Numbered from the stretch's first letter, positions 2,437 to 63,438 are shown. The stretch: 64,000 nt of DNA from Actinomycetes bacterium (GCA_021787475.1 JAJYLW010000014.1:1-64000); one strand, 5' to 3'. The notes: a model not told the origin generated them from the sequence alone. Made by a program: numbers and translations.

Positions 2437-2470
2437 CGGTGGATGGTGGATAACACCTGAAACCGAGAAC
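2437..2470 (+). repeat. Heptamer repeat arm after the propeller gene
   Basis: Units GGTGGAT, GGTGGAT, AACACCT, GAAACCG follow the stop codon with a 7-nt period. This is one arm of the dispersed heptamer element; no complementary arm is obvious before the next gene. Confidence 0.6.
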
Positions 2471-2500
2471 ATAAAACAGATCCGCATGACTGTCGGGGCG

Positions 2501-2534
2501 CGGGCCGCAGCGTGCCAAAGCACGCTGCGGCCCG
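2501..2534 (+). terminator. Strong hairpin, possible terminator without U-tract
   Basis: A perfect 15-bp stem (2501-2515 with 2520-2534) closes a CAAA loop about 70 nt after the stop codon of the propeller gene. No T-run follows, so it would be a U-less terminator or an mRNA-stabilising structure. Confidence 0.5.
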
Positions 2535-2866
2535 TATGCTGCGCCCGATGCGGGCATAACGTCCATTAAGGGATAGGGGCCCGCCGGAGGCGCGTCCCCA
2601 TCCCTGTCATTGACATGACGCAACTTTTGTAGGGGAGTACGGCCGTGCTCTCTCGGAGGATTAAGCGGCCCGCACCCGAAGAAGAAAAAGCCGGCAAAAT
2701 GCGGAAATAACAACGCCCGGGCCAAGTTGGCGCTTGCAAATGGCAGGCGGGGCGGATAACCTGTAAAATCGGATTCTGGAATTTGGACCTTGGGTTTTGG
2801 TTCAACCTGGCTTCAGTAGCAGCCCGCGAAGCTTTAAGACCAGTTTCCGCGAGGGGCATGAGGCAA
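2535..2866. other. Intergenic region with further inverted repeats, no gene seen
   Basis: No credible coding frame was found. A second stem can form between AGGGATAGGGG (about 2570-2580) and CCCCATCCCT (about 2597-2606), then GTCATTGACATGAC (2607-2620) and a near-palindrome AGTACGGCCGTGCT (about 2637-2650). These could be folded RNA or decayed repeats. They do not match the riboswitch consensus motifs I know. The last 100 nt contain loose GGA-type words. Confidence 0.35.
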
Positions 2867-3370
2867 ATGGATTCCAGGAAAGCCAAAAAAGAGCATCTTT
2901 CTCCAGTTCAGATCCCCCGCCGCACCGCGCGTCCTTCCTGGGACGAATACTTTTTCCAGATCGCTGAGCAGGTGGCGACGCGCTCGACCTGCATGCGGCG
3001 GCAGGTTGGGGCAGTGCTGGTCAAGGACAAGCGGATACTGTCCACGGGCTATAACGGCGCCCCGCGCGGGATCAGCCATTGCACCGAGGCCGGCTGCCTG
3101 AGGGAGGAGTTGGGCATCCCCTCGGGGGAGCGGCACGAGCTCTGCCGGGCGCTTCACGCAGAGCAAAACGCCATCGTCCAGGCCGCCCTCCACGGCGTCA
3201 AGATCGAAGGGGCGTCGCTTTACTGCACGCACCAACCCTGCTCGCTCTGCGCCAAGATGATTATCAATTCCGGCATCGTGGAAGTTTATTTTAACGAGGG
3301 CTATCCAGATGAGCTGGCGACGTCTTTCTTTGCCGAGGCCGGCGTCAAGCTGCACCGGACGGGTGGTTGA
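2867..3370 (+). CDS. comEB: dCMP deaminase (ComEB/cytidine-deoxycytidylate deaminase family)
   Basis: Deaminates dCMP to dUMP, feeding thymidylate synthesis, with a catalytic zinc. In the 167-aa product the zinc and catalytic motif HAE is at 97-99 and PCSLC at 124-128; between them is the family insert with C and H residues (SHCTEAGC...GERHELC) that binds a second zinc in dCMP deaminases. The open frame extends upstream to 2783, but the family-like N-terminus and a GAGGGG site at 2851-2856 favour the ATG at 2867 (or 2858). Its stop overlaps the next start (TGATG), indicating co-translation with the WecA-like gene. Confidence 0.9.
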
Positions 3371-4437
3371 TGGACTTCATCCAGAACCCCCTGGGAGGGA
3401 CGAACATTGCGTTGATGGCGTTTGTGGTCGCGGCCGCCATCGTTTTTATTGTCACGCCCACGGTCGGCTCGATTGCCCGCTTTGTCGGCGCCATGGACGA
3501 GCCCGACTACCGCAAGATCCACGAGGACCCGGTGCCGCGCCTCGGGGGGCTGGCAATATTCTTCGGCTTTATCATCCCGGCGCTTTGGTTCCTGGAGCTG
3601 ACCCCGCAGATGAAAGGCGTGCTTCTCGGCGCTTCCGTCATCACCCTCTTTGGCGCCGTCGATGATTTCCGGCCCACCGGTCCGGCGGTAAAATTTACGG
3701 GGCAGTTCCTGGCGGCGGCTTTCCTGGTTGGCTACGGCGTCCGCATCGATTATCTGACCCTGCCGATGGTTGGCGTCATCAACCTGGGCGCCTCGCTGGC
3801 GATATTGCTAACGCTGATATGGGTAGTCACCCTGATCAATATTGTCAACTTTATTGACGGCATGGACGGCCTTGCCGCCGGCGTCTGCAGCATCGCTGCC
3901 GGCACTTTTGCCGTGATCGCCATCTCCCTCGGCCGTCCCGGCGCCGGGATCCTGGCGGCGATCCTTGCCGGCACGACGCTCGGCTTCCTGCGTCACAATT
4001 TTTTCCCGGCCAAGATTTTTATGGGCGATTCCGGCTCGATGCTGCTCGGCTTCCTGCTGGCGGCGGTCACGGTGCACGGCGTGCTCAAGAGCATCGCCGC
4101 CGTCACCCTGATCATACCGCTGCTCATCCTCGGCGTCCCCATCTTTGACCTTTCCTTCGCCATCCTCAGGCGCATCAAGAACAAGCGGTCGATCTTCAGA
4201 CCCGACCGCGGCCACCTGCACCATCGGCTTTTCAACATCGGCTTTACCCAGCGCAAGGCGGTGCTGATCCTTTACGCTTGGTGCACGCTGATGAGTTCGC
4301 TCGCGCTTTCGATGCGGTTCGCGCCCGGCTTTATCACGGTGATATTAGCAGGCCTGGCCATAGGGGTCAGTTTGTATCTGGTTTACTTATTGGAAATATT
4401 AAAAATCAGGACTAGACGCAGCCCCCGCTTAAGGTGA
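3370..4437 (+). CDS. wecA: Undecaprenyl-phosphate GlcNAc-1-phosphate transferase (WecA/TagO family)
   Basis: 355-aa polytopic membrane enzyme of the MraY/WecA/TagO family. It transfers a UDP-linked HexNAc-1-phosphate to undecaprenyl phosphate to start teichoic acid, arabinogalactan-linker or other wall glycan synthesis. Motifs are in family order: VDDFRPTGP near 97-105, NFIDGMDG at 150-157, MGDSGS at 218-223 and the cytoplasmic DRGHLHHRL near 281-289 that distinguishes WecA/TagO from MraY. About ten hydrophobic segments are visible. The ATG overlaps the comEB stop by one base; an in-frame TTG lies one codon upstream. The sugar specificity is not readable from sequence. Confidence 0.9.
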   Translation: MDFIQNPLGGTNIALMAFVVAAAIVFIVTPTVGSIARFVGAMDEPDYRKIHEDPVPRLGGLAIFFGFIIPALWFLELTPQMKGVLLGASVITLFGAVDDFRPTGPAVKFTGQFLAAAFLVGYGVRIDYLTLPMVGVINLGASLAILLTLIWVVTLINIVNFIDGMDGLAAGVCSIAAGTFAVIAISLGRPGAGILAAILAGTTLGFLRHNFFPAKIFMGDSGSMLLGFLLAAVTVHGVLKSIAAVTLIIPLLILGVPIFDLSFAILRRIKNKRSIFRPDRGHLHHRLFNIGFTQRKAVLILYAWCTLMSSLALSMRFAPGFITVILAGLAIGVSLYLVYLLEILKIRTRRSPRLR

Positions 4438-4459
4438 TATTATTTCAAGATTGTTACTC

Positions 4460-4489
4460 TTGTAGCGATTATACCTGTAATGGTATACT
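4460..4489 (+). promoter_or_regulatory. Putative promoter of the atp operon
   Basis: TTGTAG (4460-4465) and TATACT (4484-4489) are 18 nt apart, 15 nt before the first atp-associated start codon. This is the only promoter-like pair between wecA and the atp genes. Confidence 0.45.
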
Positions 4490-4504
4490 GACGCGGTTTA
4501 TTAT

Positions 4505-4717
4505 TTGCCTCCTAGGAAGGCGAAACCAAAAGGTCGCCGGGTCAACTTCGCCAGTTGGGAATGGGTGGCTCTTTACCTGCTTGGCGGGGTTCTGTTAGGC
4601 ACCGCCTGCGGACTGGGGCTGGATCACTTTTTAAAGACCACCCCGCTTTTTTTAATCCTGGGCGTCTTTGGCGGCTTTGCCGCCGGTCTTTACGGGATTT
4701 ACAAGACTGTTCTCTGA
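4505..4717 (+). CDS. atpZ: AtpZ/AtpI-family small membrane protein
   Basis: 70 aa with a basic N-terminus (KAKPKGRR) and two transmembrane helices (about 20-42 and 47-67) with the G-rich pattern of the ATPase_gene1 (AtpZ) family. Family members sit at the head of atp operons and are linked to Mg2+ handling or Fo assembly. The start is a TTG with no clear ribosome site; no ATG or GTG lies in frame before the first helix. Confidence 0.7.
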   Translation: MPPRKAKPKGRRVNFASWEWVALYLLGGVLLGTACGLGLDHFLKTTPLFLILGVFGGFAAGLYGIYKTVL

Positions 4718-4747
4718 CGGACGGCCCGGCGGGTTTTTTCCCGGCAG

Positions 4748-4799
4748 ACAGCGGCGAGGGGCGCCGCTGTTGCCGACCGGGCGGTGAAGCAGCCGCCCG
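4748..4799 (+). promoter_or_regulatory. Tandem hairpins between atpZ and atpI
   Basis: ACAGCGGCG (4748-4756) pairs with CGCCGCTGT (4762-4770) over a 5-nt loop, and CGGGCGG (4778-4784) pairs with CCGCCCG (4793-4799). They lie in the 133-nt atpZ-atpI gap and have no U-tract, so an mRNA processing or stability role is more likely than termination. Confidence 0.4.
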
Positions 4800-4850
4800 A
4801 GCCAACCCCCGCGTTGTCATCTTAAAGCCGTAAAAAAGGATCTTTGATAT

Positions 4851-5237
4851 ATGATAGGAAAATTGGCAACATTGATGACGGCAGTTATTGCGGTTGGCCT
4901 GCTGCTGGGGCTTGCCGTCAGGCCCCTGCTGGCGCCCTGGGCGCTGGCGGCGGCGGTCTTCATCCTTAACTACGGGCTGTCGCTGCCGTTCATGCCAATG
5001 ATCGGGCGGCTCAGCGCCGCGGCCGCTGCCGGCCTGGCCATGATCAGCTTCCTCATCCGCTTCGGGCTCATCGGCCTCGGCCTGCTGCTGGTGGCGTTGG
5101 CGCTGCCGCACTATTTTGTCTCGACGGCTGTTTGTTTCCTCGTTATTTATACCGCTTTCCTGGGCCTGGAGATCATCGTGGGCCTAAGAGGCCGGACCGG
5201 CTTCGGGCGGGAGGTGAAGCGTGAGCGGGCAGCTTAA
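4851..5237 (+). CDS. atpI: ATP synthase subunit I (AtpI-like)
   Basis: 128-aa protein that is almost wholly hydrophobic, with four predicted membrane helices and a short basic C-terminal tail. Position directly upstream of atpB and size match AtpI, an assembly factor thought to help form the c-ring. ATG with an AAAAAAGGA site 10-15 nt upstream. The 3' end overlaps atpB by 17 nt, implying translational coupling. Identification rests on size, topology and position rather than a strong motif. Confidence 0.75.
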   Translation: MIGKLATLMTAVIAVGLLLGLAVRPLLAPWALAAAVFILNYGLSLPFMPMIGRLSAAAAAGLAMISFLIRFGLIGLGLLLVALALPHYFVSTAVCFLVIYTAFLGLEIIVGLRGRTGFGREVKRERAA

Positions 5238-6048
5238 TCCTGCCGAGGATTTCACCCAGGTGCTGCAGCCGCTTGACATTGGCGGCCACAAGCTGTCTTT
5301 TCAGCTTGGTCCCCTGGACATGTCCATTAACCGGGTGGTTGTTTACCTGTTCCTGGCCGCGGTGGCCACGGCGGTTATCTGCATCGGCCTCTCCAAAGTC
5401 GCCCGCATGCTGCCGGGCCGCAAGCAGGCAGCCTGGGAAGGGCTGTACGAGTACGTGCGCGACATCCTGGTGGGAGCAGTCATGCCGGGCGGCGCGGCGG
5501 CATCCTGGTTCCCTTACATCGCCTCCCTGTTCCTGTTCATCATGATCAGCAACCTGATGGGGTTGATCCCGCTGCCGTTCGACCTGGCCGCCGGCTTCCA
5601 CAATATCCCCGAGTTCAAAACATATTCCGCCACTGCCAACATCAACGTCACCGTCGCCCTGGCGCTGCTGACGTTTGTGCTGACGCACTACGCCGGCATG
5701 CGGGCCAATGGCGTGTTAAAGTATTTCAAGGGCTGGATGCCGTCCACGGCCCCGCCCGTGCTTAAACAGGTGCTCTTCGGCCTGCACGGCATCAGCGAGA
5801 TCTTCCGCATTGTCTCGCTCTCTGTCCGTCTCTTTGCCAATATGGCCTCCGGTGAGCTCGTGCGAATGGTCTTCTACACCATGATCCTGTTGATCCAGAG
5901 CTGGGCCATCGCCGTGCTGATTCTGCCGATGGAGGTCAGCGTCATTGTCGTCAGCGCTTTTGAGATATTTGTCGCCTTGATCCAAGCGTATATCTTTGCC
6001 ATTCTCTCCGCCGTTTACATCGGTGGGGCAATCCATCAGGAGCACTAA
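5221..6048 (+). CDS. atpB: F1Fo ATP synthase subunit a
   Basis: 275-aa integral Fo subunit providing the two half-channels for ion translocation. The diagnostic segment SVRLFANM carries the essential arginine (R203), and the GELVRM stretch follows. Five to six membrane helices are visible. The GTG start has a strong GGGAGGTGA site inside the end of atpI. Downstream, heptamer repeats separate it from atpE. Confidence 0.95.
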   Translation: MSGQLNPAEDFTQVLQPLDIGGHKLSFQLGPLDMSINRVVVYLFLAAVATAVICIGLSKVARMLPGRKQAAWEGLYEYVRDILVGAVMPGGAAASWFPYIASLFLFIMISNLMGLIPLPFDLAAGFHNIPEFKTYSATANINVTVALALLTFVLTHYAGMRANGVLKYFKGWMPSTAPPVLKQVLFGLHGISEIFRIVSLSVRLFANMASGELVRMVFYTMILLIQSWAIAVLILPMEVSVIVVSAFEIFVALIQAYIFAILSAVYIGGAIHQEH

Positions 6049-6179
6049 AAGCGGACATTGGACATTAGACTCTGGACATTGGACAAATGCCGTAATAAAA
6101 ATGCAGTTTAAACTGCAAACCATAATATCCGGGTTTTGGTGTTTATCCAATGTCAAAAATCGAACATCTAACGTCTGGT
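6049..6179 (+). repeat. Paired heptamer repeat element, atpB-atpE spacer
   Basis: After the atpB stop: AAAAGC then units GGACATT, GGACATT, AGACTCT, GGACATT (period 7). Before atpE: the complementary words TTATCCA, ATGTC and AACATCT, AACGTCT. The inner edge GGGTTTTGGTGTTTATCC (about 6130-6148) is the reverse complement of the GGATAAACACC edge seen elsewhere. A perfect 16-bp palindrome lies between the arms. Confidence 0.7.
6102..6117. promoter_or_regulatory. Perfect 16-bp palindrome before atpE
   Basis: TGCAGTTTAAACTGCA reads identically on both strands. It sits in the centre of the repeat element in the atpB-atpE spacer. It could be a protein-binding site or simply the tip of the folded element. 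Confidence 0.4.
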
Positions 6180-6196: not shown

Positions 6197-6433
<237 letters not shown>

Positions 6434-9310: not shown

Positions 9311-9336
9311 AATCCACCATCAACCATCCACCATTC
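9311..9336 (+). repeat. Heptamer repeat arm before atpG
   Basis: Units TCCACCA, TCAACCA, TCCACCA, TTC run to 7 nt before the atpG TTG. No complementary arm follows atpA. The spacer has no ribosome site. Confidence 0.6.
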
Positions 9337-10237: not shown

Positions 10238-10304
10238 CGCGTTTCGCGTTTCGTGTTTGGCGTTGAACCTGGAATTTTATCAACGCGAAACGCCAAACGA
10301 AAAC
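10238..10304 (+). repeat. Paired heptamer repeat, atpG-atpD spacer
   Basis: Units CGCGTTT, CGCGTTT, CGTGTTT, GGCGTTG directly after the stop face the complementary words CAACGCG, AAACGCC, AAACGAA about 16 nt later. The arms can fold into an imperfect hairpin of about 24 bp. Confidence 0.65.
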
Positions 10305-16152: not shown

Positions 16153-16221
16153 TTCAAAGTCCGAGTTCAAAGTTGTTAAAATGTTTCGCCGGCCATAACT
16201 CGAAACTCGGAACTCGGGACT
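16151..16221 (+). repeat. Paired heptamer repeat, proA-nadD spacer
   Basis: AGTTCAA, AGTCCGA, GTTCAAA begins within the proA stop codon; the complementary arm AACTCGA, AACTCGG, AACTCGG, GACT (16197-16221) ends 9 nt before the nadD ATG. Both arms keep a 7-nt period. Confidence 0.65.
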
Positions 16222-16230: not shown

Positions 16231-16830
16231 ATGAAGCTAGCCATCATGGGCGGGACCTTCAACCCGATTCATATCGGCCACCTGGTCTGCGCCGAGGAGG
16301 CCGTTTCCCAGTACGGGCTGGACCAGGTCCTGTTCATGCCCACCGGACTGCCGCCCCACAAGGAGATCCTGAATGGCGCCGGCCTGGAGGACCGCTACCG
16401 GATGTGCGCAATTGCCATTTCCGGGAACCCCCGCTTTGAAATCTCCCGGTACGAGATTGAAAAAAAGCGGGTCAGTTACACAGTTGGGACGGTCCGCCAT
16501 TTCCGCGAGCGGATGCCCGAGACCGAGCTTTTCTTCATCACGGGCGCTGATGCGGTGCTGGAGATTCTGGAATGGAAGGATCCCCGGGAGTTGCTCGCGA
16601 TGGCGACCCTGATCGCCGCCACCCGTCCCGGTTATCCCCTGAACCGGGTATCGAAGCCGCTGAGCCGGTTCCTGATAGAAAACAGGGTGAAGATCATGGA
16701 AATACCCGGAATAGGCGTCTCATCAACCATGATCAGAGGCCGTGTCTCTGGGCAAAAGTCAATCCGGTATCTCGTGTCCGAGGGCGTCCGGCAGTATATT
16801 GAGAGTGAAGGTCTCTACCGTCAAGGATAA
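16231..16830 (+). CDS. nadD: Nicotinate-nucleotide adenylyltransferase
   Basis: 199 aa, adenylates nicotinate mononucleotide in NAD synthesis. The nucleotidyltransferase signature GGTFNPIHIGHL is at 8-19 and the second motif SSTMIRGR near the C-terminus (ISSTxIR class). GAGGGG precedes the ATG. Its end overlaps the next gene by 26 nt. Confidence 0.94.
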   Translation: MKLAIMGGTFNPIHIGHLVCAEEAVSQYGLDQVLFMPTGLPPHKEILNGAGLEDRYRMCAIAISGNPRFEISRYEIEKKRVSYTVGTVRHFRERMPETELFFITGADAVLEILEWKDPRELLAMATLIAATRPGYPLNRVSKPLSRFLIENRVKIMEIPGIGVSSTMIRGRVSGQKSIRYLVSEGVRQYIESEGLYRQG

Positions 16831-28681: not shown

Positions 28682-28734
28682 AAAAGCGGATATTGGATGC
28701 TGGATTCTGGATAACCCAATATCCAATATCCGTT
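28682..28734 (+). repeat. Paired heptamer repeat after the RACo-like gene
   Basis: AAAAAGC then GGATATT, GGATGCT, GGATTCT, GGATAAC leads into the complementary ATCCAAT, ATCCG. The outer 12 bp (28687-28698 with 28721-28732) pair perfectly. The AAAGCGGA edge and GGATAAccc inner edge are both present, making this the most compact complete element. Confidence 0.7.
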
Positions 28735-29640: not shown

Positions 29641-29722
29641 GGGTTAAGCCGGCATCTGAGTCTGGAATCCAGCACCCGGTTTGTTGGTTTTATCCAGGAT
29701 CCAGCATCTAGAATCAAGCAAC
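29641..29722. repeat. Heptamer repeats between convergent lepB and guaB3
   Basis: Words such as ATCCAGG, ATCCAGC, ATCTAGA, ATC (about 29694-29717) keep the 7-nt period, with CGGGTT and GGTTTTATCC edges. The region serves the 3' ends of both genes. Confidence 0.55.
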
Positions 29723-30893: not shown

Positions 30894-30950
30894 AAAAGCG
30901 GATGGTGGATGGTGGACGGTAGATGGTGGATAAACACCAAGACCTAACCC
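30894..30950 (-). repeat. Heptamer repeat arm upstream of guaB3
   Basis: On the plus strand AAAAGC, GGATGGT, GGATGGT, GGACGGT, AGATGGT, GGATAAACACC in strict phase; relative to guaB3 it is the TCC-type arm just before the ribosome site. Both fixed edges are present. Confidence 0.7.
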
Positions 30951-31952: not shown

Positions 31953-32066
31953 GCGTTTCACGTTTAACACGGAAAAAGCGAAGAGGTTTTACGCGAAACG
32001 TTAAACGGCCGGCGGTTTAACTTGGAACGGGGAAAATCCACCATCCACCATCCACCATCCACCATC
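31953..32066 (+). repeat. Two heptamer families between pdxS and pdxT
   Basis: GCGTTTC, ACGTTTA, ACACGG after pdxS faces CGCGAAA, CGTTAAA, CGG (about 31992-32008); then TCCACCA repeats four times (32037-32066). The TCCACCA block is in frame with pdxT. Confidence 0.7.
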
Positions 32067-35758: not shown

Positions 35759-36505
35759 GTGTCCGGACATTCCAAGTGGTCATCCATCAAGCACAAGAAG
35801 GGCGCCGCTGACGCCAAGCGCGGCAAGCTCTTTTCCAAGCTTTCGCGCGCCATCACCGTTGCGGTCAAGGAGGGTGGCCCCGACCCGTCGGGTAACGCCA
35901 CGCTGGCGACGGCCATCCAGAAGGCGAAGGACAACTCAATGCCGAAGGACAACATCGAGCGCGCCATCGCCAAGGGCGCTGGCGGCGGCGATGGCGAGTC
36001 CTATGAAACCGTCACCTATGAGGGCTACGGGCCGGCGGGCGTCGCGGTGCTGGTCGAGGCCATGACCGACAACCGCAACCGCACTGCATCCGACGTCCGC
36101 AATATCTTTAACAAGACGGGCGGCAAGCTTGGGGAGACCGGATCGGTGGCCTGGCTGTTCGAGCGCAAGGGATCAATCGTGGTGGACGCGAATACCATTG
36201 GTGAGGACGAGCTGATGGCCGCCGCCATTGACGCCGGCGCCGAAGACGTCAACCAGGACGAGAGCGCCTATGAGATCGTCACCGATCCCTCGGATTTTAT
36301 GCGCGTACGCGGGGCGCTCGAAGCGGCCGGGATCAAATATGCGTCCGCCGAGCTTGCTATGCTTCCCAAGAGCACGGTCAGGCTGGAGCAGAGCGACGCC
36401 AAAAAGATGATGCGGCTAATGGACGCCCTCGAAGACAACGATGACGTCCAGGAAGTGCACGCCAACTTTGACATTGATGAAGAGGTGCTGGAAAGCGGAT
36501 GGTAG
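35759..36505 (+). CDS. yebC: YebC/PmpR family DNA-binding regulator
   Basis: 248 aa. [31 protein letters not shown] is the hallmark N-terminus; [26 protein letters not shown] and the C-terminal ferredoxin-like segments complete the family. Members are transcriptional regulators or translation factors. GTG start after GGAGGAGACA. The final residues SGW and the stop are encoded by a GGATGGT heptamer, so the 3' end has been set by the repeat. Heads a yebC-ruvC-ruvA-ruvB cluster. Confidence 0.94.
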
Positions 36506-36677
36506 ATGGTGGATGGTAGATGGCAGATAAAATTCAAACCAAAGAAAAAAGGAAATGATTTGACGAATGGTAAATAATCGATATGATTTTCGGAACTCGA
36601 AACCTTGAACTTGGAACTTTGAATTGGGAACTGAAACAGTGAAATCCACCACCCACCACCCACCACCCACCATCCGC
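36494..36677 (+). repeat. Composite heptamer element, yebC-ruvC spacer
   Basis: Left arm 36497-36531: GGATGGT, AGATGGT, GGATGGT, AGATGGC, AGATAAA, containing the yebC stop TAG (36503-36505). Middle: a promoter-like box (36560-36587). Then 36592-36633: GGAACTC, GAAACCT, TGAACTT, GGAACTT, TGAATTG, GGAACTG. Right arm 36645-36677: TCCACCA, CCCACCA three times, TCCGC, translated as the RuvC N-terminus. The most complete example of the architecture. Confidence 0.75.
36560..36587 (+). promoter_or_regulatory. Shared promoter-like box, copy 1 (ruvC)
   Basis: TTGACG, 16-nt spacer, TATGAT. The spacer contains GTAAATAATCGA, conserved in two other spacers (37870 and 53434), so the whole unit is repeated rather than only the hexamers. 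Confidence 0.6.
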
Positions 36678-37797: not shown

Positions 37798-37858
37798 CGG
37801 ATGGTAGATTATGGATGGTAGATGCTGGATTAAACCCGGAGCCGAAACCCGAAACAAA
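37798..37858 (+). repeat. Heptamer repeat arm after ruvA
   Basis: GGATGGT, AGATTAT, GGATGGT, AGATGCT, GGATTAA then ACCCGGA, GCCGAAA, CCCGAAA directly after the stop. Followed by promoter copy 2 and by TTGGGAC, TTGGGAC, ATTGAAC before ruvB. Confidence 0.65.
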
Positions 37859-37869: not shown

Positions 37870-37897
37870 TTGACAAATAGTAAATAATCAATGTAAT
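37870..37897 (+). promoter_or_regulatory. Shared promoter-like box, copy 2 (ruvB)
   Basis: TTGACA, 16-nt spacer with AGTAAATAATCAA, TGTAAT; 26 nt before the ruvB ATG. Would allow ruvB transcription independent of ruvCA. Confidence 0.6.
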
Positions 37898-37922
37898 TTC
37901 TTGGGACTTGGGACATTGAACC

Positions 37923-43455: not shown

Positions 43456-43490
43456 CGGAAACGCCAAACGTGAAACGTAAAACGTGAAAC
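43456..43490 (+). repeat. Heptamer repeat containing the queH start codon
   Basis: CGCCAAA, CGTGAAA, CGTAAAA, CGTGAAA in strict phase from 43462. The GTG of the last unit (43484-43486) is the initiation codon of queH. Confidence 0.7.
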
Positions 43491-45686: not shown

Positions 45687-45721
45687 GGCCTCTCCTTTCC
45701 ATTCCGTCTACTCGGGGGTCT

Positions 45722-45819
45722 ACTCGGGGACACAATACTATTTATTTGCAGGATATTTGCAAGTGCATTATTAAAGGGGAGAAAAAATCCTGCAAATAAA
45801 TAGTATTGTGTCCCCGAGT
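45722..45819. repeat. Perfect 33-bp inverted repeat (REP/MITE-like)
   Basis: Positions 45722-45754 and 45787-45819 are exact reverse complements, separated by 32 nt. Arms start ACTCGGGGACACAATACT and are AT-rich inside. The right arm's final base is the first base of the caspase-like gene's stop triplet. No transposase is present. The GGGGACACAATACT type of terminus resembles REP sequences mobilised by Y1 transposases in other bacteria (inference). Confidence 0.8.
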
Positions 45820-46667: not shown

Positions 46668-46719
46668 CTTTCGGTTGATTTTAACAGCTCCGGAGGAGTT
46701 GGGAAACCCGCAACCCCAA

Positions 46720-46761
46720 CCCGGAACCTGGAACCCGGAATTTGAAACCGGGAACCGGAAA
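46720..46761 (+). repeat. Heptamer repeat in the caspase-tgt divergent spacer
   Basis: CCCGGAA, CCTGGAA, CCCGGAA, TTTGAAA, CCGGGAA, CCGGAAA in strict 7-nt phase. The spacer must also hold promoters for both genes. Confidence 0.65.
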
Positions 46762-46786
46762 CAAATTCCGGATCGGAGATTTGTGA

Positions 46787-48284: not shown

Positions 48285-48508
48285 CGCGGCTGCGTCCTTG
48301 ATTGTGCCGGCGGGGCTCAAGCCAAGGCGGCCGCCGGCCGACACCCTTTGCGGGCGCGCGGGCTGTGTTAAAATAGTTCTGTAACTGCAATTATTTTGAC
48401 ACTCCCTCCCCTTTCACTTATTCTCAAAAGGATGTCCGGCTGCGGCCGGCTGCAAGGGTTACGCAAGGAGTGTGTTAAGGAGGCGATTGGATATGGATTT
48501 TGAGCAAA

Positions 48509-48544
48509 AAATCCAAAGTCCAAAATCCAAAGTCCAAAGTCCGG
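48509..48544 (+). repeat. Heptamer repeat abutting the secD start
   Basis: AATCCAA, AGTCCAA, AATCCAA, AGTCCAA, AGTCCGG in strict phase, ending 4 nt before the TTG. A loose GGATATGGATTTTGAGC arm (48490-48505) precedes it. Confidence 0.7.
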
Positions 48545-50983: not shown

Positions 50984-51206
50984 CACCTTCCGCGCTGCTG
51001 CGCCGGCGCGTAATTCACTCGCCTTCCGCATCCCGATTAGGGAAAATATCTCCGGGGTAGAATTTATTCCCGCCCGGGGTTAATCTTCTGCCTGACAAAG
51101 CCGTTATTTAAGTTGCCAACCGCGAAGGCCGGGCCTGAATGCTATCTTTGAAAATTCATAAGGTTTTGGGTTTAACTGAAACGTTAAACGTTTAAGGAGG
51201 CGCAGC
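50984..51206. other. Intergenic region before the phasin-like gene
   Basis: 223 nt without a coding frame. Short GGGTTTAACTGAAACGTTAAACGTTT words (about 51167-51194) belong to the CGAAACG heptamer family. No convincing terminator for the sec operon is visible. Confidence 0.4.
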
Positions 51207-51594: not shown

Positions 51595-51674
51595 GCACAG
51601 GCCTGGAGGCCTGTGCCTACCGATAGAAGGTAGATGGCAGGCTTTGTAAATGGCAGGCTTTCCAGCCTGCCTTT
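51595..51674 (+). terminator. Tandem hairpins between the phasin-like gene and ubiB
   Basis: First stem GCACAGGCC (51595-51603), loop TGGA, GGCCTGTGC (51608-51616), 9 bp perfect. Second stem GGCAGGCT (51652-51659), loop TTCC, AGCCTGCC (51664-51671), followed by TTT. The second shares CAGGCT/AGCCTG with the terminator at 21695, suggesting a dispersed hairpin family as much as a terminator. Confidence 0.5.
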
Positions 51675-53384: not shown

Positions 53385-53420
53385 AGCGGATGGCGGATGG
53401 TGGATTAAACCCGAAACCAT
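53385..53420 (+). repeat. Heptamer repeat arm after the UbiB-family gene
   Basis: AAAGC, GGATGGC, GGATGGT, GGATTAA, ACCCGAAACC; fixed outer and inner edges as at ruvA-ruvB. Promoter copy 3 follows 14 nt later. Confidence 0.65.
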
Positions 53421-53433: not shown

Positions 53434-53461
53434 TTGTCAAGTAGTAAATAATCGCTATAAT
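53434..53461 (+). promoter_or_regulatory. Shared promoter-like box, copy 3 (diguanylate cyclase)
   Basis: TTGTCA, 16-nt spacer with AGTAGTAAATAATCGC, TATAAT. The best -10 of the three copies. Transcription should begin near 53468, about 87 nt before the gene. Confidence 0.65.
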
Positions 53462-53480
53462 GTTTCGGAAACCGGAAACC

Positions 53481-53532
53481 GGAGTTTGGGCAACTCCGAT
53501 GGCGTCAATATCATTTGGTGACGCCTTTTTTT
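53481..53532 (+). terminator. Tandem-hairpin attenuator in the diguanylate cyclase leader
   Basis: Hairpin 1: GGAGTT (53481-53486), loop, AACTCC (53492-53497). Hairpin 2: GGCGTCA (53501-53507), 11-nt loop, TGACGCC (53519-53525) followed at once by seven T (53526-53532). Lying between the promoter (53434-53461) and the start codon (53555), this is a canonical intrinsic terminator inside a leader, i.e. an attenuator or riboswitch expression platform. It does not match the GEMM, ZTP, fluoride or preQ1 consensus as I know them. Confidence 0.65.
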
Positions 53533-56219: not shown

Positions 56220-56301
56220 GTTTTCATTGCCGGCCGATGTGGCGTCATGCCCGTGCGTGAGGCATGTGAACGAATGGTTTACGTGAAACGTGAACCGTGG
56301 G

Positions 56302-56670
56302 TCATTTATTCAGGTGCCCCTCGATTATTGCCGCCAGCTCCCTCGTATTGATCGGTTTGGAAATGTAGCCTTCGCAGCCGGCGGCCCTGACCCTCTCTTG
56401 GTCGCCGTGCATCGCGTGGGCGGTGATGGCGACAATTGGAATGCGGGCGGTGGCCGGGTTATTCTTCAGCAGGCCGGTCGCCTCAAGTCCGTCCATTCCG
56501 GGAAGCTGCACATCCATCAGGATGATGTCGGGCCGCTCGCTCCCGGCAATGACGATAGCCTCCTCGGCGCTTTTTGAGACCAGCACCTCAAAGTTTTCTT
56601 GCTCCAGCACAAACTTGATCAACCGGGAATTCATTCTATTATCTTCAACTACAAGCGCCTTTATTTTCAT
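56302..56670 (-). CDS. Single-domain response regulator (CheY-like receiver)
   Basis: 122 aa, receiver domain only: acidic pair ED at 9-10 (VVEDNRMNSRLI), phosphoacceptor D53 in LMDVQLPGMDG, conserved T/A (AITAHAM) and K104 in ISKPIN. Probably phosphorylated by the hybrid kinase upstream and acting by protein contact, for example in a phosphorelay. AAGGAAATGATC precedes the ATG, after a TCC-type repeat arm. Confidence 0.9.
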   Translation of the reverse strand: MKIKALVVEDNRMNSRLIKFVLEQENFEVLVSKSAEEAIVIAGSERPDIILMDVQLPGMDGLEATGLLKNNPATARIPIVAITAHAMHGDQERVRAAGCEGYISKPINTRELAAIIEGHLNK

Positions 56671-56690
56671 CTGGCGATCATTTCCTTAAT

Positions 56691-56787
56691 GCGGAATGGG
56701 GAATGGTTTAAATGCGGAATGCGAATTTTGGATTTTGGAATGAAAAACCAAAGAGCCGATTTGTTTATTCATTCCGCATTCCCCATT
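56691..56787 (-). repeat. Paired heptamer repeat between the kinase and receiver genes
   Basis: On the plus strand GCGGAAT, GGGGAAT, GGTTTAA, ATGCGGA (56691 onward) and ATTCCGC, ATTCCCC, ATTCGGC, ATT (56770-56793) are reverse complements. Relative to the genes, the GGAATG arm follows the kinase stop and the TCC arm precedes the receiver. Confidence 0.7.
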
Positions 56788-56792
56788 CGGCA

Positions 56793-59630
56793 TTAAATTA
56801 ATTTGACCGCGTTCCCGCCGGCGCCGGCGAGCTCCTGCAGCGCTTTCTCCAACCTCAGCGTCAGCATGCTGGCGCTGGCCGAGCCCTGAGGGCAGTCGGT
56901 TACGGCAATGCTCACCGTCAGGCGGAAGGGATTGCCGGCGTCGTCCGTAAACTTCAGATAACGAATCATGTCAACTAACTTCTGCGCCACCTTGAGGCTG
57001 TCCTGGCGCGACGTTTCCGGCAGCAGAACGGCAAAGCGGGCGTCATCATAACGGGACAGCGCATCGGCGGCCCTGATGTTGCTGCGGAGCATGCCGGTCA
57101 AAGCGGCCAGCATCGCCCCTCGGGCTGCCGGGTCGTTCATTTCGTCAAGCCCTATCATCAGCACCGACAGATCAAGCTTGTAGCGCTCCGCCCTCCTGAT
57201 CTCCTCGGCGAGCCTCTTTTCAAAATAACGGCGGTTGAACAGCCCTGTCTCGGCGTCAACAAGCCGGGCCCGCTCCGGCTGCAGCTTTTCTAGCCGGAAG
57301 ACCTCGCTCAAGAGCCGCTGGCGGGAATCGCCTCCCTTGAAGATGACCCTGCGGACGTGCTTTTCATCAAGCAGCCGCGCTTCACCGGCTGACAGCTCCT
57401 TGCCCGACGTGACTATCACCGGGATGTCCATCGTCAACGGATGCCGCTGCAGGAAAGAAACAATATCAAAAATGGAGGCGCCCTCAATGTGAGCGTCCAG
57501 GATGATTACGTCGGGACTTTGCTCCAGCGCCATCTCCTTGGCCTGGGCGCCGTCGGCTGCTTCAAGCACAGTAAAGCCCTGCCGCTTCAGGATCGCCACC
57601 GTGGCGCCGGCAGCTTCGCCGTCGCTGTCCGCCACCAGGATCTGCGGCTGGGAGCGGCGGGCCGGGCTGACCTGCTTCAGATATTTAAGCTTGTCAAGCA
57701 GCGGCCGCCGGCTGAGCGGCTTGACGCAATAATCGGCGGCGCCGAGGGCGAAGCCGAGATCGGGGTTGTCAAGCGCGGAGCAGATGATGACGCCGATATC
57801 CGCGGTGAGGGGATCGCTCTTCAGCTGGTGCAGCACCTGCCAGCCGTCCTTGTCCGGCAGCATGATGTCGAGGCAGATGGCGAACGGGCGCACCGCCTTC
57901 GCTTTTTCAACCGCCTCGCCGCCCTCGGCGGCAAATTCGACGCCGTAACCGGCCTGCCCCAGCCAGTGGCCGATCAACTCCCTTGTCTTGGCGTCATCTT
58001 CGACCACGAGGATGCTTGTTTTTTTATTATTTGCCGAGGCGGCAGCCGGCGCCGGCGCACGCTCAATCTCCTGCGCCGCAGCGGGCCGGGAGGACGCCGC
58101 GGGGCGCTCGGCCGGAATTGCTGCCGGGAGGGTCGTCTTTGCCGGCAGTGGCAGCGTGAAATAAAAGTTGCTTCCCTTGCCCACCTGGCTCTCAACCCAG
58201 ATGCGTCCCCCGTGGAGCTCGACGAACTTGCGCGTCAGCGTCAGCCCCAGGCCCGTACCTTCATACTGGCGCGAAGACGATCCGTCCGCCTGTTGAAATT
58301 CGGAGAAAATCTTTTCCTGGTCGGCAGGGGCGATGCCGACTCCGGTGTCGCTGATCTCGAAGCGGGCGGCGTTGTCCATTACCGCCGTGCTGATGCTCAC
58401 CGCGCCGCCGGCGGGCGTAAATTTAATTGCGTTGCCAACAAGGTTATAGACAATCTGTTTGAATTTGTTAACGTCGGCGACAATCGATGAAAGCCGGCTG
58501 GAAACATCAACCGTCAGCCTGACATTCTTTTTTACCGCCAGCGGCTGCATTGTCGCGATTGTATCCTCGAGCACGGTGCCAACATAGAATTCTTCCCGAT
58601 CAAGCTGCATCTGCCCTGCCTCGACCTTGGCAAGGTCGAGAACATCGTTGATCAGCTCGAGCAGGTGATAGCCGCTGGTGATGATGTTTTCGCAGAACTC
58701 CTGCCTGTCTGCTTCCGCCAGCGCCTGCGGGTCGGAATCCCTGAGAACTTCCGAAAAGCCAATGATGATGTTCAGAGGGGTGCGGAGCTCGTGGCTCATG
58801 TTGGCCAGGAATTCCGATTTCATCCGGTTGGCCCGCTCCAGCTCCCGGTTGGCCTGCTCCAGCTCGCGGGTGTGCAGCTCGATCTGGTCGATCATGCCGT
58901 TGAAGGCCGCCGACATCGAGCCGAGCTCGTTCCTGCCCGACTCGACCGGCACCCGGACCGAGTAATCGCCGGCGGAGATGTGGCCGGCGGCCCTGGTCAT
59001 CCGCGTCAGGGGAGTAAGCACGGACCGGCGCAGCATCATCACGACCGTGCCGGAAACCAGCACGAAAATGAGGGCGCCAAATCCAAACATGACGTCGCGG
59101 CTGCCGGTGACGCTTTCATCGAGGGAGGCAGTGCTGATGTCAACCCGAATTGCTCCCAGGAGGCCACGCTGGTTGGGAGCAGGCGCAATGCGGCCATGGC
59201 ACTGCAGGCATGGGGTTTTGACCGGAATCGGCTCGGCCACGGAAATATAACCGTTTCCGGAGCCACTCCCCAGCGTCTGGACGCCGGAGCCAAGGAGCTT
59301 CTCCACGTCGGCGCTACCGCTGGCGCCGATCGCTTGCCTGTCTGTCGACGCCCAGATCCGGTCGCTGGCGGAGACGATGTCAACCTCGCCGACCGAGTCG
59401 CGCTGGCGCAAGCTGTCGAGCGTCTGCTGGATGTCGCCGCGCTGTCCCCGCAGCATGTCGTTTTCCAGCCCGTTCAGGATAGTTGCCGTCAGCGCCGAGG
59501 CCATCTGCTCGAAATGCCTGTTGTCGGCCCGGTTCTGGATGACAATGACGGCGATCACTCCGAGACTGCCGAGAATAAGCATGATCAGAACAACGTATAG
59601 GGGGATTTTGTTCTGTAGCTTCATAACCAC
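56793..59630 (-). CDS. Hybrid histidine kinase with haem-type CxxCH sensor, two receivers and a degenerate GGDEF
   Basis: 945 aa (GTG; an ATG lies two codons in). Helix 1 at about 11-32, extracytoplasmic sensor at 33-183 with CLQCH at 141-145, a c-type haem attachment motif; helix 2 at about 184-200; HAMP about 200-255; HisKA with H280 in SHELRTPL; HATPase with DTGVGIAPAD and GTGLGLTLTRKF; receiver 1 (CLDIMLPDKDG); receiver 2 (ILDAHIEG, less conserved); C-terminal GGDEF-like domain with YDDARF in place of GG(D/E)EF, so probably not a cyclase. A redox or gas sensor is inferred. Start of the kinase-receiver-hypothetical operon. Confidence 0.9.
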   Translation of the reverse strand: MVMKLQNKIPLYVVLIMLILGSLGVIAVIVIQNRADNRHFEQMASALTATILNGLENDMLRGQRGDIQQTLDSLRQRDSVGEVDIVSASDRIWASTDRQAIGASGSADVEKLLGSGVQTLGSGSGNGYISVAEPIPVKTPCLQCHGRIAPAPNQRGLLGAIRVDISTASLDESVTGSRDVMFGFGALIFVLVSGTVVMMLRRSVLTPLTRMTRAAGHISAGDYSVRVPVESGRNELGSMSAAFNGMIDQIELHTRELEQANRELERANRMKSEFLANMSHELRTPLNIIIGFSEVLRDSDPQALAEADRQEFCENIITSGYHLLELINDVLDLAKVEAGQMQLDREEFYVGTVLEDTIATMQPLAVKKNVRLTVDVSSRLSSIVADVNKFKQIVYNLVGNAIKFTPAGGAVSISTAVMDNAARFEISDTGVGIAPADQEKIFSEFQQADGSSSRQYEGTGLGLTLTRKFVELHGGRIWVESQVGKGSNFYFTLPLPAKTTLPAAIPAERPAASSRPAAAQEIERAPAPAAASANNKKTSILVVEDDAKTRELIGHWLGQAGYGVEFAAEGGEAVEKAKAVRPFAICLDIMLPDKDGWQVLHQLKSDPLTADIGVIICSALDNPDLGFALGAADYCVKPLSRRPLLDKLKYLKQVSPARRSQPQILVADSDGEAAGATVAILKRQGFTVLEAADGAQAKEMALEQSPDVIILDAHIEGASIFDIVSFLQRHPLTMDIPVIVTSGKELSAGEARLLDEKHVRRVIFKGGDSRQRLLSEVFRLEKLQPERARLVDAETGLFNRRYFEKRLAEEIRRAERYKLDLSVLMIGLDEMNDPAARGAMLAALTGMLRSNIRAADALSRYDDARFAVLLPETSRQDSLKVAQKLVDMIRYLKFTDDAGNPFRLTVSIAVTDCPQGSASASMLTLRLEKALQELAGAGGNAVKLI

Positions 59631-59906: not shown

Positions 59907-61571
59907 ATGGGTTTGCCAAGCGACAACATCAAGCAGGGGATTGCCAGGGCGCCGCACCGGTCGCTGCTTAAGGCGCTGGGGCTGAACGACGGCGATCTCA
60001 GGAAGCCGTTCATCGGCGTCGCCAATTCATTTAACGAGGTCATCCCCGGGCACCTGCACCTGCGCCAGATCGCGGCGGCGGTGAAGGACGGCATCTGGGC
60101 GGCCGGCGGCGTGCCTTTCGAGTTTGGCGGCATCGGCATCTGCGACGGCCTTGCCATGAATCACGAGGGGATGAACTTCTCGCTGGCCAGCCGCGAACTG
60201 ATCGCCGATGAAATCGAAGCGATGGCGCGGGCGCATGCTTTCGACGGCCTCGTGCTGATTCCAAACTGCGACAAGATCATTCCCGGAATGGTCATGGGGG
60301 CCCTCCGGGTCAACATCCCGGCAATCGTTGCCAGCGGCGGGCCAATGCTGGCCGGAGAGCTGGAAGGGGAGAAGATTGACTTAAACAGCGTCTTTGAGGC
60401 GGTGGGCGCGGCGCTTACGGGCAAGATCAGCGAGGAGCGCCTCGCCCGCATCGAAAGCTGCGCCTGTCCCGGCTGCGGCTCTTGCGCCGGGCTTTTTACA
60501 GCCAACTCGATGAACTGCCTCACCGAGGCGCTGGGGCTGGCGCTGCCGGGAAATGGCACCATTCCCGCGGTTGATGCGGCCCGCATCAGGCTGGCGCGCC
60601 GCGCCGGCGGGCGGGCCGTCGAGCTGGTCGGGGAAGACCTGAAGCCCCGTGACATAGTTACGCAGACGGCCATCGGCAACGCGCTGGCGGTTGACTCTTC
60701 GATGGGCTGCTCAACCAACACGGTGCTGCACCTGGCCGCGGTTGCCCACGAAGCGGGGCTGGATTTCAATCTTGCTTCGGTTAACGAAGTTACGGCGCGG
60801 ACGCCGCATCTCTGCTCGCTGAGGCCGGCAGGCTCCTATCACATGGAAGACCTGAACCGCGCCGGCGGCGTCCAGGCGCTGATGAAGGTATTGCTTGACG
60901 CCGGCAAGATTGATGGTTCCGCCGCGACTGTTTCCGGCCTGAGCATCGCCGAGCAGGTGAAGGACGCCAGAGTCCTTGATGCTGATGTCATTCGTGCTGT
61001 TGACGCCGCCTACCATCCCACCGGTGGCCTGGCGGTGCTGTCCGGCAACCTGGCTCCCAACGGCGCCGTGGTCAAGGAATCCGCGGTGCTGCCCGAAATG
61101 CTCAAGCACAGGGGGAGGGCTTCGGTGTTCGAGGCCGAGCAGGACCTGGTGCAAGCGATCGAGCAGGGCGCCATTGCGCCCGGCACTGTTGTGGTTATCC
61201 GCTATCAGGGCCCCAAGGGGGGCCCGGGGATGCCGGAGATGCTGACGCCGACCTCGGCGATTGCCGGCGCCGGCCTCGACAGCGAAGTGGCGCTGATAAC
61301 AGACGGGCGCTTTTCGGGCGCCACCCGGGGCGCCAGCATCGGCCATCTCTCGCCGGAGGCGTTTGCCGGCGGCCCGATTGCGCTGGTTGAGGACGGCGAC
61401 GAGATCGAGATAGATATTCCCGGCAGGAAGATCAACCTGCTGGTGGACAATGAGGAGCTGAAGCGGCGCGCCGCCGTCTGGCAGCCGCGCGAACCGCGCT
61501 ACCGGACAGGTCTGCTGTCAAGGTATATTAAGCTTGTCCAGGGTGCCGAGACGGGGGCGGTAACCGGATGA
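59907..61571 (+). CDS. ilvD: Dihydroxy-acid dehydratase
   Basis: 554 aa. Fe-S dehydratase of valine, leucine and isoleucine synthesis. [11 protein letters not shown] and [19 protein letters not shown] carry the cluster cysteines; [21 protein letters not shown] is the C-terminal signature. ATG 59907; a TTG three codons upstream is also open. The stop TGA (61569-61571) is inside a GGATGAT heptamer. Confidence 0.95.
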
Positions 61572-61716
61572 TGGACAGTCGACGGCAGATGCCGGATAAA
61601 CCCAAAAGGAGTAAATTTTGCATCTCGCGTGCATTTCATCACGTGAATTGACTGAAACGACAGGAACTCTTGGCCGATGGTTTAAATCCACCATCCACCA
61701 TCCACCATCCACCATC
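61566..61716 (+). repeat. Paired heptamer repeat, ilvD-ilvB spacer
   Basis: GGATGAT, GGACAGT, CGACGGC, AGATGCC, GGATAAA, CCC (61566-61603) begins inside ilvD, whose stop it supplies. TCCACCA repeats four times (61687-61714), ending 6 nt before the ilvB ATG. Same edges as at other loci. Confidence 0.75.
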
Positions 61717-61721
61717 TGTAT

Positions 61722-63404
61722 ATGAAGGGCTCTGAGATAATAATTGAATCGTTAAAGGCGGCCGGGGTTGACACCATCTTCGGTTTGCCGGGTGGCATGG
61801 TCATCCCGCTTTACGACGCTTTGTATGACTCGGACCTGCGCCACTTTCTGGCCCGTCACGAGCAGGGCGCGGCTCACATGGCCGATGGCTACGCCCGCGC
61901 CACCGGCAGGACGGGAGTCTGCATCGCCACGAGCGGTCCGGGCGCAACCAACCTGACAACCGGCATCGCCAATGCTTATATGGACTCGACGCCGATGGTC
62001 GCCATCACCGGCCAGGCAGTCAGCCCCCTGATCGGCACCGACGCCTTCCAGGAGGCGGACGTCACCGGCATTACCGAGCCGATCGTCAAGCACAGCTATT
62101 TGATTAAGGACACAAAGGATATCGCCCGGGTTTTCAAGGAGGCTTTTTACATCGCTTCAACCGGGCGGCCCGGGCCGGTGGTGATTGACATTCCGTCTGA
62201 CATACAGCTGGCGGACATCGAATACAAGCCGGCGGGCAGGCTTAATCTTCCCGGGTACAAGCCCACCTTAAAAGGAAATATGAAGCAGATCCGGTCGGCG
62301 GCGGGCGCCATTGCCGCCGCGGAGAGGCCGGTTATTTACGCCGGCGGCGGCGTCATCACCGCCGGCGCCGAAAAGGAACTGCTGGCGCTGGCGAAACTGA
62401 TGAAGATCCCGGTGACGACGACGCTGATGGGGCTGGGAGCCTTTCCCGAAAACAACGATCTGTCGTTGGGGATGCTGGGGATGCACGGTACCGGCTACGC
62501 CAATTATGCCGTTACCAACTGTGATCTCCTCATCGGCGTCGGCGCCCGCTTCGACGACCGCGTCACCGGCAAAATATCAACTTTCGCGCAGCATGCCAAA
62601 AAAATCCATGTTGACATGGACCCGGCCGAGATCAGCAAGAACGTGCCCATCGACATCCCCATTGTCGGCGACGCCCGTGACGTGCTTGGCGGGATCGTCG
62701 CCGAGTTGAAAAAGAAGAAGCGGAACCCGAAACAGACCGCTGCCTGGTTCGATCAGGTAATCGCCTGGAAGCAAAAGCATCCGCTTCATTACCGGGATCT
62801 GAAGGGGTCGATCATGCCTCAATATGTTATCGAAGAGGTTAATAAGATCACCAAGAGCGACGCCATCCTCTGCACCGACGTGGGGCAGCATCAGATGTGG
62901 TCCTGCCTCTTCTACACACATATCAAGCCGAGGCATTTCATCAGCTCGGGCGGTCTGGGGACAATGGGGTTTGGCTTCCCGGCCGCGATCGGCGCCAAGG
63001 TGGGCCGTCCCGACATGACCGTCATTGATATCGCCGGCGATGGCAGCTTCCAGATGAACATCCAGGAGCTGGCGACAGCGGTCTGTTATGACATACCCGT
63101 GGTCGTCTGTATCCTCAACAACGGGTTTCTGGGGATGGTGCGCCAGTGGCAGGAGTTGTTCTGGAACAAGCGCTATTCGGATACGGTCATCTCCTGTCAG
63201 CCTGATTTTGCCGCAGTGGCGGAAGCATATGGGGCCCTCGGCATGACGATCACGGACAAAAAAGACGTCGGCGAAGCGATTCGCACGGCGATCAAGGCAA
63301 AGAAGCCGGCGGTGCTGGACTTTCATGTCAAACGGGAAGAGAATGTATTCCCGATGGTGCCGGCGGGCAAGTCGATCGATGAGATGATCGGGGGGCACAA
63401 GTAA
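61722..63404 (+). CDS. ilvB: Acetolactate synthase large subunit
   Basis: 560 aa. ThDP-dependent carboligase for branched-chain amino acids. The catalytic Glu lies in RHEQGAAHMADGYAR, the FAD/middle domain at about 190-340, and the ThDP/Mg motif is GDGSFQMNIQELATAV...NN near 440-468. The ATG has no ribosome site, being preceded by TCCACCA repeats. Works with IlvN downstream. Confidence 0.96.
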   Translation: MKGSEIIIESLKAAGVDTIFGLPGGMVIPLYDALYDSDLRHFLARHEQGAAHMADGYARATGRTGVCIATSGPGATNLTTGIANAYMDSTPMVAITGQAVSPLIGTDAFQEADVTGITEPIVKHSYLIKDTKDIARVFKEAFYIASTGRPGPVVIDIPSDIQLADIEYKPAGRLNLPGYKPTLKGNMKQIRSAAGAIAAAERPVIYAGGGVITAGAEKELLALAKLMKIPVTTTLMGLGAFPENNDLSLGMLGMHGTGYANYAVTNCDLLIGVGARFDDRVTGKISTFAQHAKKIHVDMDPAEISKNVPIDIPIVGDARDVLGGIVAELKKKKRNPKQTAAWFDQVIAWKQKHPLHYRDLKGSIMPQYVIEEVNKITKSDAILCTDVGQHQMWSCLFYTHIKPRHFISSGGLGTMGFGFPAAIGAKVGRPDMTVIDIAGDGSFQMNIQELATAVCYDIPVVVCILNNGFLGMVRQWQELFWNKRYSDTVISCQPDFAAVAEAYGALGMTITDKKDVGEAIRTAIKAKKPAVLDFHVKREENVFPMVPAGKSIDEMIGGHK

Positions 63405-63438
63405 AGCGGATGGCGGTTGCTGGATGCTGGATAAACCC
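63405..63438 (+). repeat. Heptamer repeat arm after ilvB
   Basis: AAAGC then GGATGGC, GGTTGCT, GGATGCT, GGATAAA, CCC in strict phase directly after the stop, with both fixed edges. No complementary arm before ilvN; a different hairpin is there. Confidence 0.7.

Follow-up and report, generated by a model that had tools for sequence, protein, structure and literature searches.

Heptanucleotide arrays with two cores and one polarity at gene ends in the spacers of an Actinomycetes genome

The spacers of a 64,000-nt stretch of DNA from an Actinomycetes bacterium (GCA_021787475.1, JAJYLW010000014.1:1-64000; the whole of this stretch is referred to below as the window) carry tandem words that differ from one spacer to the next while keeping a period of 7 nt, and this raises the question of what such arrays are and what keeps them at the ends of genes. 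In a preliminary description they had been taken for a single dispersed element with shared edges, filling most spacers in paired arms and distinct from known heptanucleotide repeats. The analysis presented here identifies them as a multi-word variant of those known repeats, not clearly a separate mobile system, in which two core sequences share one polarity relative to gene ends.

The genome around the window is a 1.84-Mb draft in 36 contigs, and a larger sample was formed from the window and 20 further stretches, making up 438 kb (67.7 kb of spacers and 364 kb of coding sequence); as some of these stretches were chosen near GGATGGT matches, this sample is partly biased and non-random, which leaves the window figure unaffected. 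Genes were predicted with a codon-score script, so that exact starts are uncertain. With expectations taken from dinucleotide shuffles, the 8.1 kb of spacers in the window contain 25 period-7 tracts (score of at least 8, the cut-off of the window lag analysis) against 0.2 in shuffled sequence, and those of the 438-kb sample contain 79 against 0.6, confirming the excess that had been predicted. Lags of 5, 6, 8, 9, 10 and 11 gave 0–2 tracts each in the window and lag 14 gave 12, and in the lag analysis of the 438 kb only lags 14 and 21 were clearly raised besides lag 7; the coding sequence of that sample holds 10 period-7 tracts. In this exact 7-nt excess in spacers, and in the variation of word and copy number between relatives, the arrays qualify as heptanucleotide repeats, that is, short tandemly repeated repetitive sequences (STRRs) or long simple sequence repeats with a unit of 7. 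The words first listed (GGATGGT, GGACATT and others) were located at, or a few bases from, the positions given for them; at 61566 an array is indeed present, but its copy of GGATGGT is degenerate (GGATGATGGACAGTCGACGGCAGATGCCGGAT). That the arrays fill most spacers proved too strong a statement, a tract being present in 61 of 204 spacers of 50–350 bp, and pairing holds for a minority only, with both arms in 29 array spacers and a single arm in 84.

Two classes of array can be distinguished, class B with the unit GGAYNNT (GGA core) and class A with the unit GTTYNNN (GTT core). For arrays lying no more than 60 nt from a gene end, with the sequence read inward from the nearest end, class B shows GGA in 63 cases against 6 reversed and class A shows GTT in 71 against 14, giving 134 against 20 for both classes together, and the orientation bias relative to stops and starts that had been proposed is therefore real. 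Median distances of the first core are 6 nt (class B) and 5 nt (class A) downstream of stop codons and 15–17 nt from start codons, and arrays of opposite sense are rarely found within 15 nt of a gene end. Core columns of the unit are 85–96% fixed, and the last columns differ in 29–45% of comparisons between neighbouring units; a phase-free test also found unequal variation among columns, the between-column variance of 0.0267 exceeding all 200 null draws (mean 0.0221, maximum 0.0241), while a phase-free search for the most conserved triplet per array, the arrays being short, gave a weak signal. The arrays are mixed as well as short (0.8 distinct words per unit), and their units are no more homogeneous towards one end than towards the other, so that polar growth, which should produce such a gradient, was rejected. 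Class B arrays have a conserved outer flank, AAAA[G/C]C|GGAT, and an inner flank, GGATaAAacc, i.e. TAAAACC after the GGA core; of the shared edges described earlier these looser forms are real, whereas the exact pair AAAGCGGA...GGATAAACCC co-occurs only twice in the genome. The two arms of one spacer are more alike than arms from other spacers (11.8 against 9.0, p=0.008, n=25).

The inner words turn over between species as a block, as had been supposed. The genomes compared were the same-genus carriers G000, G001, G002, G003 and G005, the same-genus non-carrier G004 and, in total, 19 genomes of the family. In the atpG-atpD spacer, GTTTCGC arms here correspond to GGATATT in G001 and GTTTCCA in G005, with none in G004; orthologues of the atpB-atpE spacer in G001, G005 and G008 carry class B arrays with other words, G004 retaining only AAGGCGGATGC; and where the spacer at a RACo-like gene (the arm at 28688) has orthologues, in G001 and G002, the words have changed while edge and core are retained. 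A comparison of the close species G003 and G005 shows arrays lengthened by a single 7-nt unit or with words altered at free positions. At one clean presence/absence site between these two there is no target duplication and the outer flank has been left behind, so that the difference looks like a simple deletion, and no clean insertion with target duplication was found in the species comparisons. G004, which is 97% complete, has no array of either class anywhere in its genome, G008 carries class B only and G013 class A only, from which it follows that the two classes are gained and lost independently. Within the phylum the class B pattern occurs in just 12 of 397 genomes, a distribution suggestive of an uncommon trait that is gained and lost.

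Read as sense RNA, the arrays give G+U-rich trailers directly behind stops and A+C-rich leaders directly ahead of starts, where Shine-Dalgarno (SD) sites are few; SD-like 4-mers were found at 23% of array-adjacent starts against 55% (p=8e-5). Two modules can be recognised from the arrangement of arrays within spacers. In the first, a predicted intercistronic hairpin, both ends carry the same class, a promoter is absent and the arms would pair: there are seven AA and two BB codirectional same-class spacers, none with a cassette promoter, and same-class spacers have a median RNA fold z of -2.2, with 67% below -2, against -0.16 in array-free spacers. The second is a putative transcription-unit border cassette, consisting of a class B trailer, a near-constant promoter (TTGACAnnnAGTAAATAATCnnTATAAT) and a class A leader (GGAAC/GAAAC) that starts some 5 nt downstream of the -10 box. 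In all five mixed-class spacers the stop is the class B end and the start the class A end; their folding is unremarkable (z -0.07), and two of them qualify by score as promoter cassettes. With up to 3 mismatches the promoter TTGACAnnnAGTAAATAATCnnTATAAT was found 14 times in this genome, 19 times in G001, 7 times in G002 and once each in G005 and G017; none was found in G003, G004 or the remaining family genomes, nor with a reversed control. Among 30 promoter sites inspected, 22 are followed within 60 nt by a period-7 tract, where 0.75 are expected, and 21 are preceded by one. Ordinary intrinsic terminators were rejected as the identity of the trailers, terminator-like sites being near the shuffled level in a crude scan. 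An Rfam scan of the window at the gathering score matched no known structured RNA.

Paired arms are seen at several places in the window. A class B array of GGACATT at 6053..6085 (+), 4 nt past the atpB stop, has a degenerate partner at 6146..6175 (-) with the inner edge TTTATCC in the atpB-atpE spacer, and the atpG-atpD hairpin consists of a class A GTTTCGC array at the atpG stop as its 5' arm (10238..10264, +) and a class A 3' arm at 10282..10299 (-; sense GCGAAAC). A class A trailer with a GTTCAAA-type arm (16154..16175, +) is followed by a class A leader array with the sense AACTCGG (16197..16221, -) ahead of a cytidylyltransferase-like gene at 16231. After the RACo-like gene lie a class B 5' arm of GGATATT/GGATGCT/GGATTCT at 28688..28712 (+) and its class B 3' arm, sense CCAATATCC, at 28716..28731 (-). 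Around the minus-strand gene 56302-56670, a class A array is found at the stop (56281..56299, -) and GGA-core arrays of GGAATGC and GGATTTT on the start side (56688..56739, +), with a partner GGAATGC array at 56770..56794 (-) at the stop of the minus-strand gene 56793.

Cassette promoters occur at three places in the window. In the first, a class B trailer array at 36498..36528 (+), overlapping the end of gene 35759-36505, precedes a TTGACG-16-TATGAT promoter with the conserved spacer GTAAATAATC (36560..36587, +), and a class A leader array with the sense GGAACTC/GAACTTG begins about 5 nt past its -10 box (36592..36632, -), followed by a class B array, sense CCACCAC, at 36646..36675 (-) ahead of a gene start at about 36681. 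In the second, a class B trailer array (37799..37830, +) and the promoter TTGACAAATAGTAAATAATCAATGTAAT (37870..37897, +) are followed, immediately past the -10 box, by a leader array of CTTGGGA (37900..37914, no strand assigned). The third has a class B trailer array at 53386..53405 (+), the promoter TTGTCAAGTAGTAAATAATCGCTATAAT of a GGDEF gene at 53434..53461 (+) and, 4 nt past its -10 box, a class A leader array with the sense CGGAAAC at 53466..53483 (-).

Further class B trailer arrays lie at 2435..2451 (+), 3 nt past the stop of a BNR-repeat gene (209-2431), at 61566..61600 (+; degenerate) and at 63406..63432 (+), the last with both edges AAAGCGGA...GGATAAACCC. Ahead of the atpG start a single class B array has the sense ATCCACC (9312..9334, -), and the same sense is repeated four times in class B arrays at 32036..32066 (-), near the start of gene 32022, a start whose exact position is uncertain, and at 61686..61716 (-), a leader array 5 nt before a start without an SD site. 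Another class B leader array reads AAAGTCC/AAAATCC in sense (48508..48542, -). Class A leader arrays have the senses GTGAAAC (43459..43490, -), GGAACCC (46705..46762, -) and AAACGTT (51179..51195, -). Class B arrays are also found in a convergent spacer at the stop of a minus-strand gene (29692..29718, -) and in a divergent spacer on the start side of a minus-strand gene (30900..30931, +).

Several published repeats resemble these arrays. Cyanobacterial STRRs are heptanucleotide tandem arrays dispersed through spacers; no description of their polarity, of paired arms or of a link to promoters was found in the literature searched. The heptamers of Xanthomonas (GGGAATC) and Anabaena/Nostoc (GGGGAYT) have a period of 7, are intergenic and lie 0–50 bp from genes, with the G-rich strand coinciding with the coding strand downstream of stops and with the non-coding strand upstream of starts; they occupy the same spacers in related species and vary there in length and sequence (PMC4692102). 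The window arrays share with them the period, location, GGA core and polarity, which holds within 50 bp of genes, and differ in that each of those genomes has one word, read as G-quadruplexes, whereas here dozens of words from two core classes are accompanied by conserved flanks, by hairpins between ends of the same class and by a promoter cassette. TAACTGA repeats are known from Beggiatoaceae, some Cyanobacteria and Bacteroidetes; in Beggiatoaceae 147 of 170 sets point toward starts, SD sites are present in about 10%, and indels between close strains come in 7-nt steps (PMC4679880). The arrays described here likewise lie just upstream of starts depleted in SD sites, but TAACTGA is a single word found mainly in leaders, and the present genome adds trailer arrays, another class and a conserved promoter; TAACTGA itself is not among the array words of this genome. 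In our reading, TAACTGA taken inward is GTTATCA, which has a GTT core oriented as in class A. One Flexibacter set located right after a stop is reversed, as an inward rule predicts, and a small Microcystis sample is mixed (PMC4679880). In the P6b region of the Nostoc trnL intron, heptad stems belong to Class I (TDNGATT) or Class II (NNTGAGT), the whole class being swapped with pairing kept (PMC4476775); degenerate heptads on both stem arms and block replacement of word class are thus shared with a locus that is one structural RNA, while the arrays here occur in spacers genome-wide. The published polarity (PMC4692102) and class-swapped stems (PMC4476775) weaken the earlier view of a system distinct from STRRs. 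A single rule may unite the Xanthomonas, Anabaena, Beggiatoaceae and Nostoc trnL cases, and such a rule was not found stated in the literature searched.

The same direction is seen far outside the genus. The matches listed for a 38-nt class B pattern come to more than 118 stretches, from Bacteroidota, Chlorobi, Verrucomicrobia, Planctomycetes, Cyanobacteria, Desulfobacterales, Acidobacteria, Calditrichota and other groups, and viral contigs contain it in 33 stretches. Of the class B arrays found no more than 60 nt from a gene end at these foreign loci, 31 are directed inward and 4 outward, and arrays outside the search pattern are directed inward for GGA in 16 cases against 3 and for GTT in 16 against 4; the control triplets GAA, GAC, TTC, CGA and CGT showed no direction bias there. 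The G+T-rich strand reads away from the gene in 109 cases against 22 in the genus and 45 against 17 in unselected arrays elsewhere, while array-free spacer ends of the same foreign loci have no G+T skew (225 against 233); as some of the arrays share a locus, these counts are not fully independent. This common polarity across phyla suggests one common cause. Paired inward-GGA hairpins much like those of the window were also observed at L073, L119, L169 and L172 (a contig from a viral collection, Chlorobaculum, Saprospiraceae and Verrucomicrobia).

What, then, produces the arrays and holds them in place? We tentatively favour, with confidence somewhat short of even, the explanation that they are remade in place by turnover of 7-nt units and are kept as mRNA leaders, trailers and intercistronic stems by selection on mRNA ends. 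Units would be continually gained, lost and mutated in place with the GGA or GTT core retained, probably through polymerase slippage or recombination by units of 7 nt, and selection would keep core and polarity because these set the structure of mRNA ends, the outcome being open leaders without SD sites, trailers able to pair with leaders and stems between cistrons. In its favour are the restriction to period 7 and its multiples, the polarity of arrays that lie close up against stop codons, a skew missing from array-free spacer ends, the unequal column variation with its conserved core, the 7-nt unit gained between close species, a tendency of orthologous ends to keep their class while changing words, the folding of same-class spacers that lack the promoter, the constant B-then-A order of mixed ones, the likeness of arms within one spacer, the SD depletion, and the published parallels in TAACTGA leaders (PMC4679880) and in the polarity of the Xanthomonas and Anabaena heptamers (PMC4692102). 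As the polarity is strand-symmetric at starts and stops, transcription direction alone cannot produce it; it would follow naturally from complementarity in kind between leaders and trailers, or from a DNA process directed by the gene border. Several observations weigh against the favoured explanation. Array spacers taken together fold no better as sense RNA than array-free ones, and a hairpin as the general function of arrays was rejected for this reason, so that the intercistronic hairpins proposed earlier stand only where both ends share a class; most array spacers, moreover, have a single arm. The SD depletion could reflect arrays invading leaders that need no SD site. Class agrees at 21 of 29 orthologous array-bearing ends (BB 18, AA 3, AB 8), which is suggestive and not significant (Fisher p=0.10, with pairs that are not independent), and the absence of arrays from G004 of the same genus means that their role is dispensable.

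Neutral heptanucleotide microsatellites would arise by a preference of the replicative polymerase for slippage by 7 nt, the arrays growing in unselected DNA and being excluded from reading frames because 7 is not a multiple of 3. This explanation has already been proposed in the literature (cited in PMC4692102 and PMC4679880) and accounts for the strict period, the fast turnover, the arrays reaching the very edge of genes and the existence of one congener without them; we nevertheless consider it rather unlikely, as it predicts neither the inward polarity at starts and stops and the cores common to loci and phyla, nor the unequal column variation and the fixed order of B array, promoter and A array, and polar growth should have left the homogeneity gradient that is missing.

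Insertion of non-autonomous mobile elements resembling miniature inverted-repeat transposable elements, the arrays being terminal inverted repeats or solo ends placed at gene junctions, some with a promoter, appears more doubtful still. The defined outer edge of class B, an inward polarity like that of transposon ends and a dispersed promoter cassette nearly confined to array-carrying genomes are what it would lead one to expect. A 126-bp cassette of G002, present 99% identical at C66:1-126 and C76:15035-15160 with different downstream sequence, points the same way, but both copies lie at contig ends, and the pair is either a recent copy or a strain or assembly effect; the other cassettes of comparable length are well below that identity, those within this genome being 67–88% alike, with no recent burst of copies seen. 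Array positions also persist across species of the genus, and the one clean presence/absence site lacks a target-site duplication. The Y1 (REP/RAYT) transposase is absent from G001, G002, G003 and G005, with one in G000. The single mobile element with fixed edges that had been envisaged is not upheld by these data. REP, BIME and REPIN elements with their RAYT are likewise dispersed, intergenic and present singly or as inverted pairs, but here single arms are heptad arrays rather than individual hairpins and most carriers lack the transposase, and a RAYT/REP system was rejected as the driver, four of five genus carriers having none. Repeat addition by a retroelement or telomerase-like enzyme was also rejected, the reverse transcriptase RVT_1 being absent from all genus carriers and G008.

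A dedicated DNA- or RNA-binding protein reading one GGA/GTT core per 7 nt, with arrays as multi-site targets lost together with the protein in G004, would explain the conserved core with free flanking bases, the all-or-none distribution within one genus and the independence of the two classes in G008 and G013. It seems improbable to us, given that no candidate was found, that none of the 19 family genomes encodes CsrA, the obvious binder of GGA (a CsrA regulon was rejected accordingly), and that RNA at the two gene ends shows opposite array strands. G-quadruplex or i-motif elements, as proposed for the Xanthomonas/Nostoc heptamers, fit the G-rich GGATGGT arrays and have the same published polarity, but are a very remote prospect here, and the G-quadruplex was rejected as a common cause, since about half of the arrays are class A, with the same polarity and positions and with words such as GTTTCGC, GTTCAAA, GTTTAAC and GTTTCAC that lack G-runs every 7 nt and cannot form one.

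Other dispersed elements were observed in the spacers. A near-perfect inverted repeat, CTCGGGGACACAATACTATTTATTTGCAGGAT ... ATCCTGCAAATAAATAGTATTGTGTCCCCGAG, lies between two minus-strand genes at 45717-45817 of the window, and a related hairpin, GGGGACACGATCCCAATTTCC, occurs in spacers of L013 (19318) and L016 (18679); the word GGGGACACNAT has 7 occurrences in the 438-kb sample and none in about 300 kb from relatives, these hairpins being a separate, species-specific element family. An element of the form AATCTATC[C/T]C...GATAGATT has 8 copies in 80 kb of G001 (spacers L039-L042) and 1 in G005, with none in the 438 kb here. The words GGCAGGCT/AGCCTGCC recur 75 times in the 438 kb (at 51630-51661 of the window and in many spacers) and apparently include another short dispersed hairpin family. 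Among the genes, 209-2431 contains 123/246-bp tandem repeats at 572-1197 inside its coding sequence and matches Pfam PSII_BNR (YCF48-like) in four stretches, and a small open reading frame (LPPRKAKPKGRRVNFASWEWVALYLLGGVLLGTACGLGLDHFLKTTPLFLILGVFGGFAAGLYGIYKTVL) at about 4500-4720, upstream of the ATP synthase genes, probably encodes an AtpI-like assembly protein, judging by its sequence character; similar DNA is found at the same place in G001, G005 and G008.

In conclusion, heptanucleotide repeats have been reported word by word in scattered bacteria for decades with their function missing, and a single genome holding the whole range of words exposes rules that single-word genomes hide, namely two cores, one polarity, two modules, turnover in place and a distribution within the genus that is all or none. 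It is conceivable, if on present evidence a long way from probable, that these rules reflect a general gene-border code in many unrelated lineages, in which degenerate heptads with a GGA or GTT core, always G+T-rich on the strand leading away from the gene, label the leaders and trailers of mRNAs for recognition by a factor gained and lost as a unit; were this true, a single system would underlie the heptamers that have been published separately as G-quadruplexes, as STRRs and as TAACTGA repeats, each being a dialect of it. The genus itself, with five carriers against one non-carrier, is a natural experiment in which the function of the arrays can be tested through gene content and transcripts.

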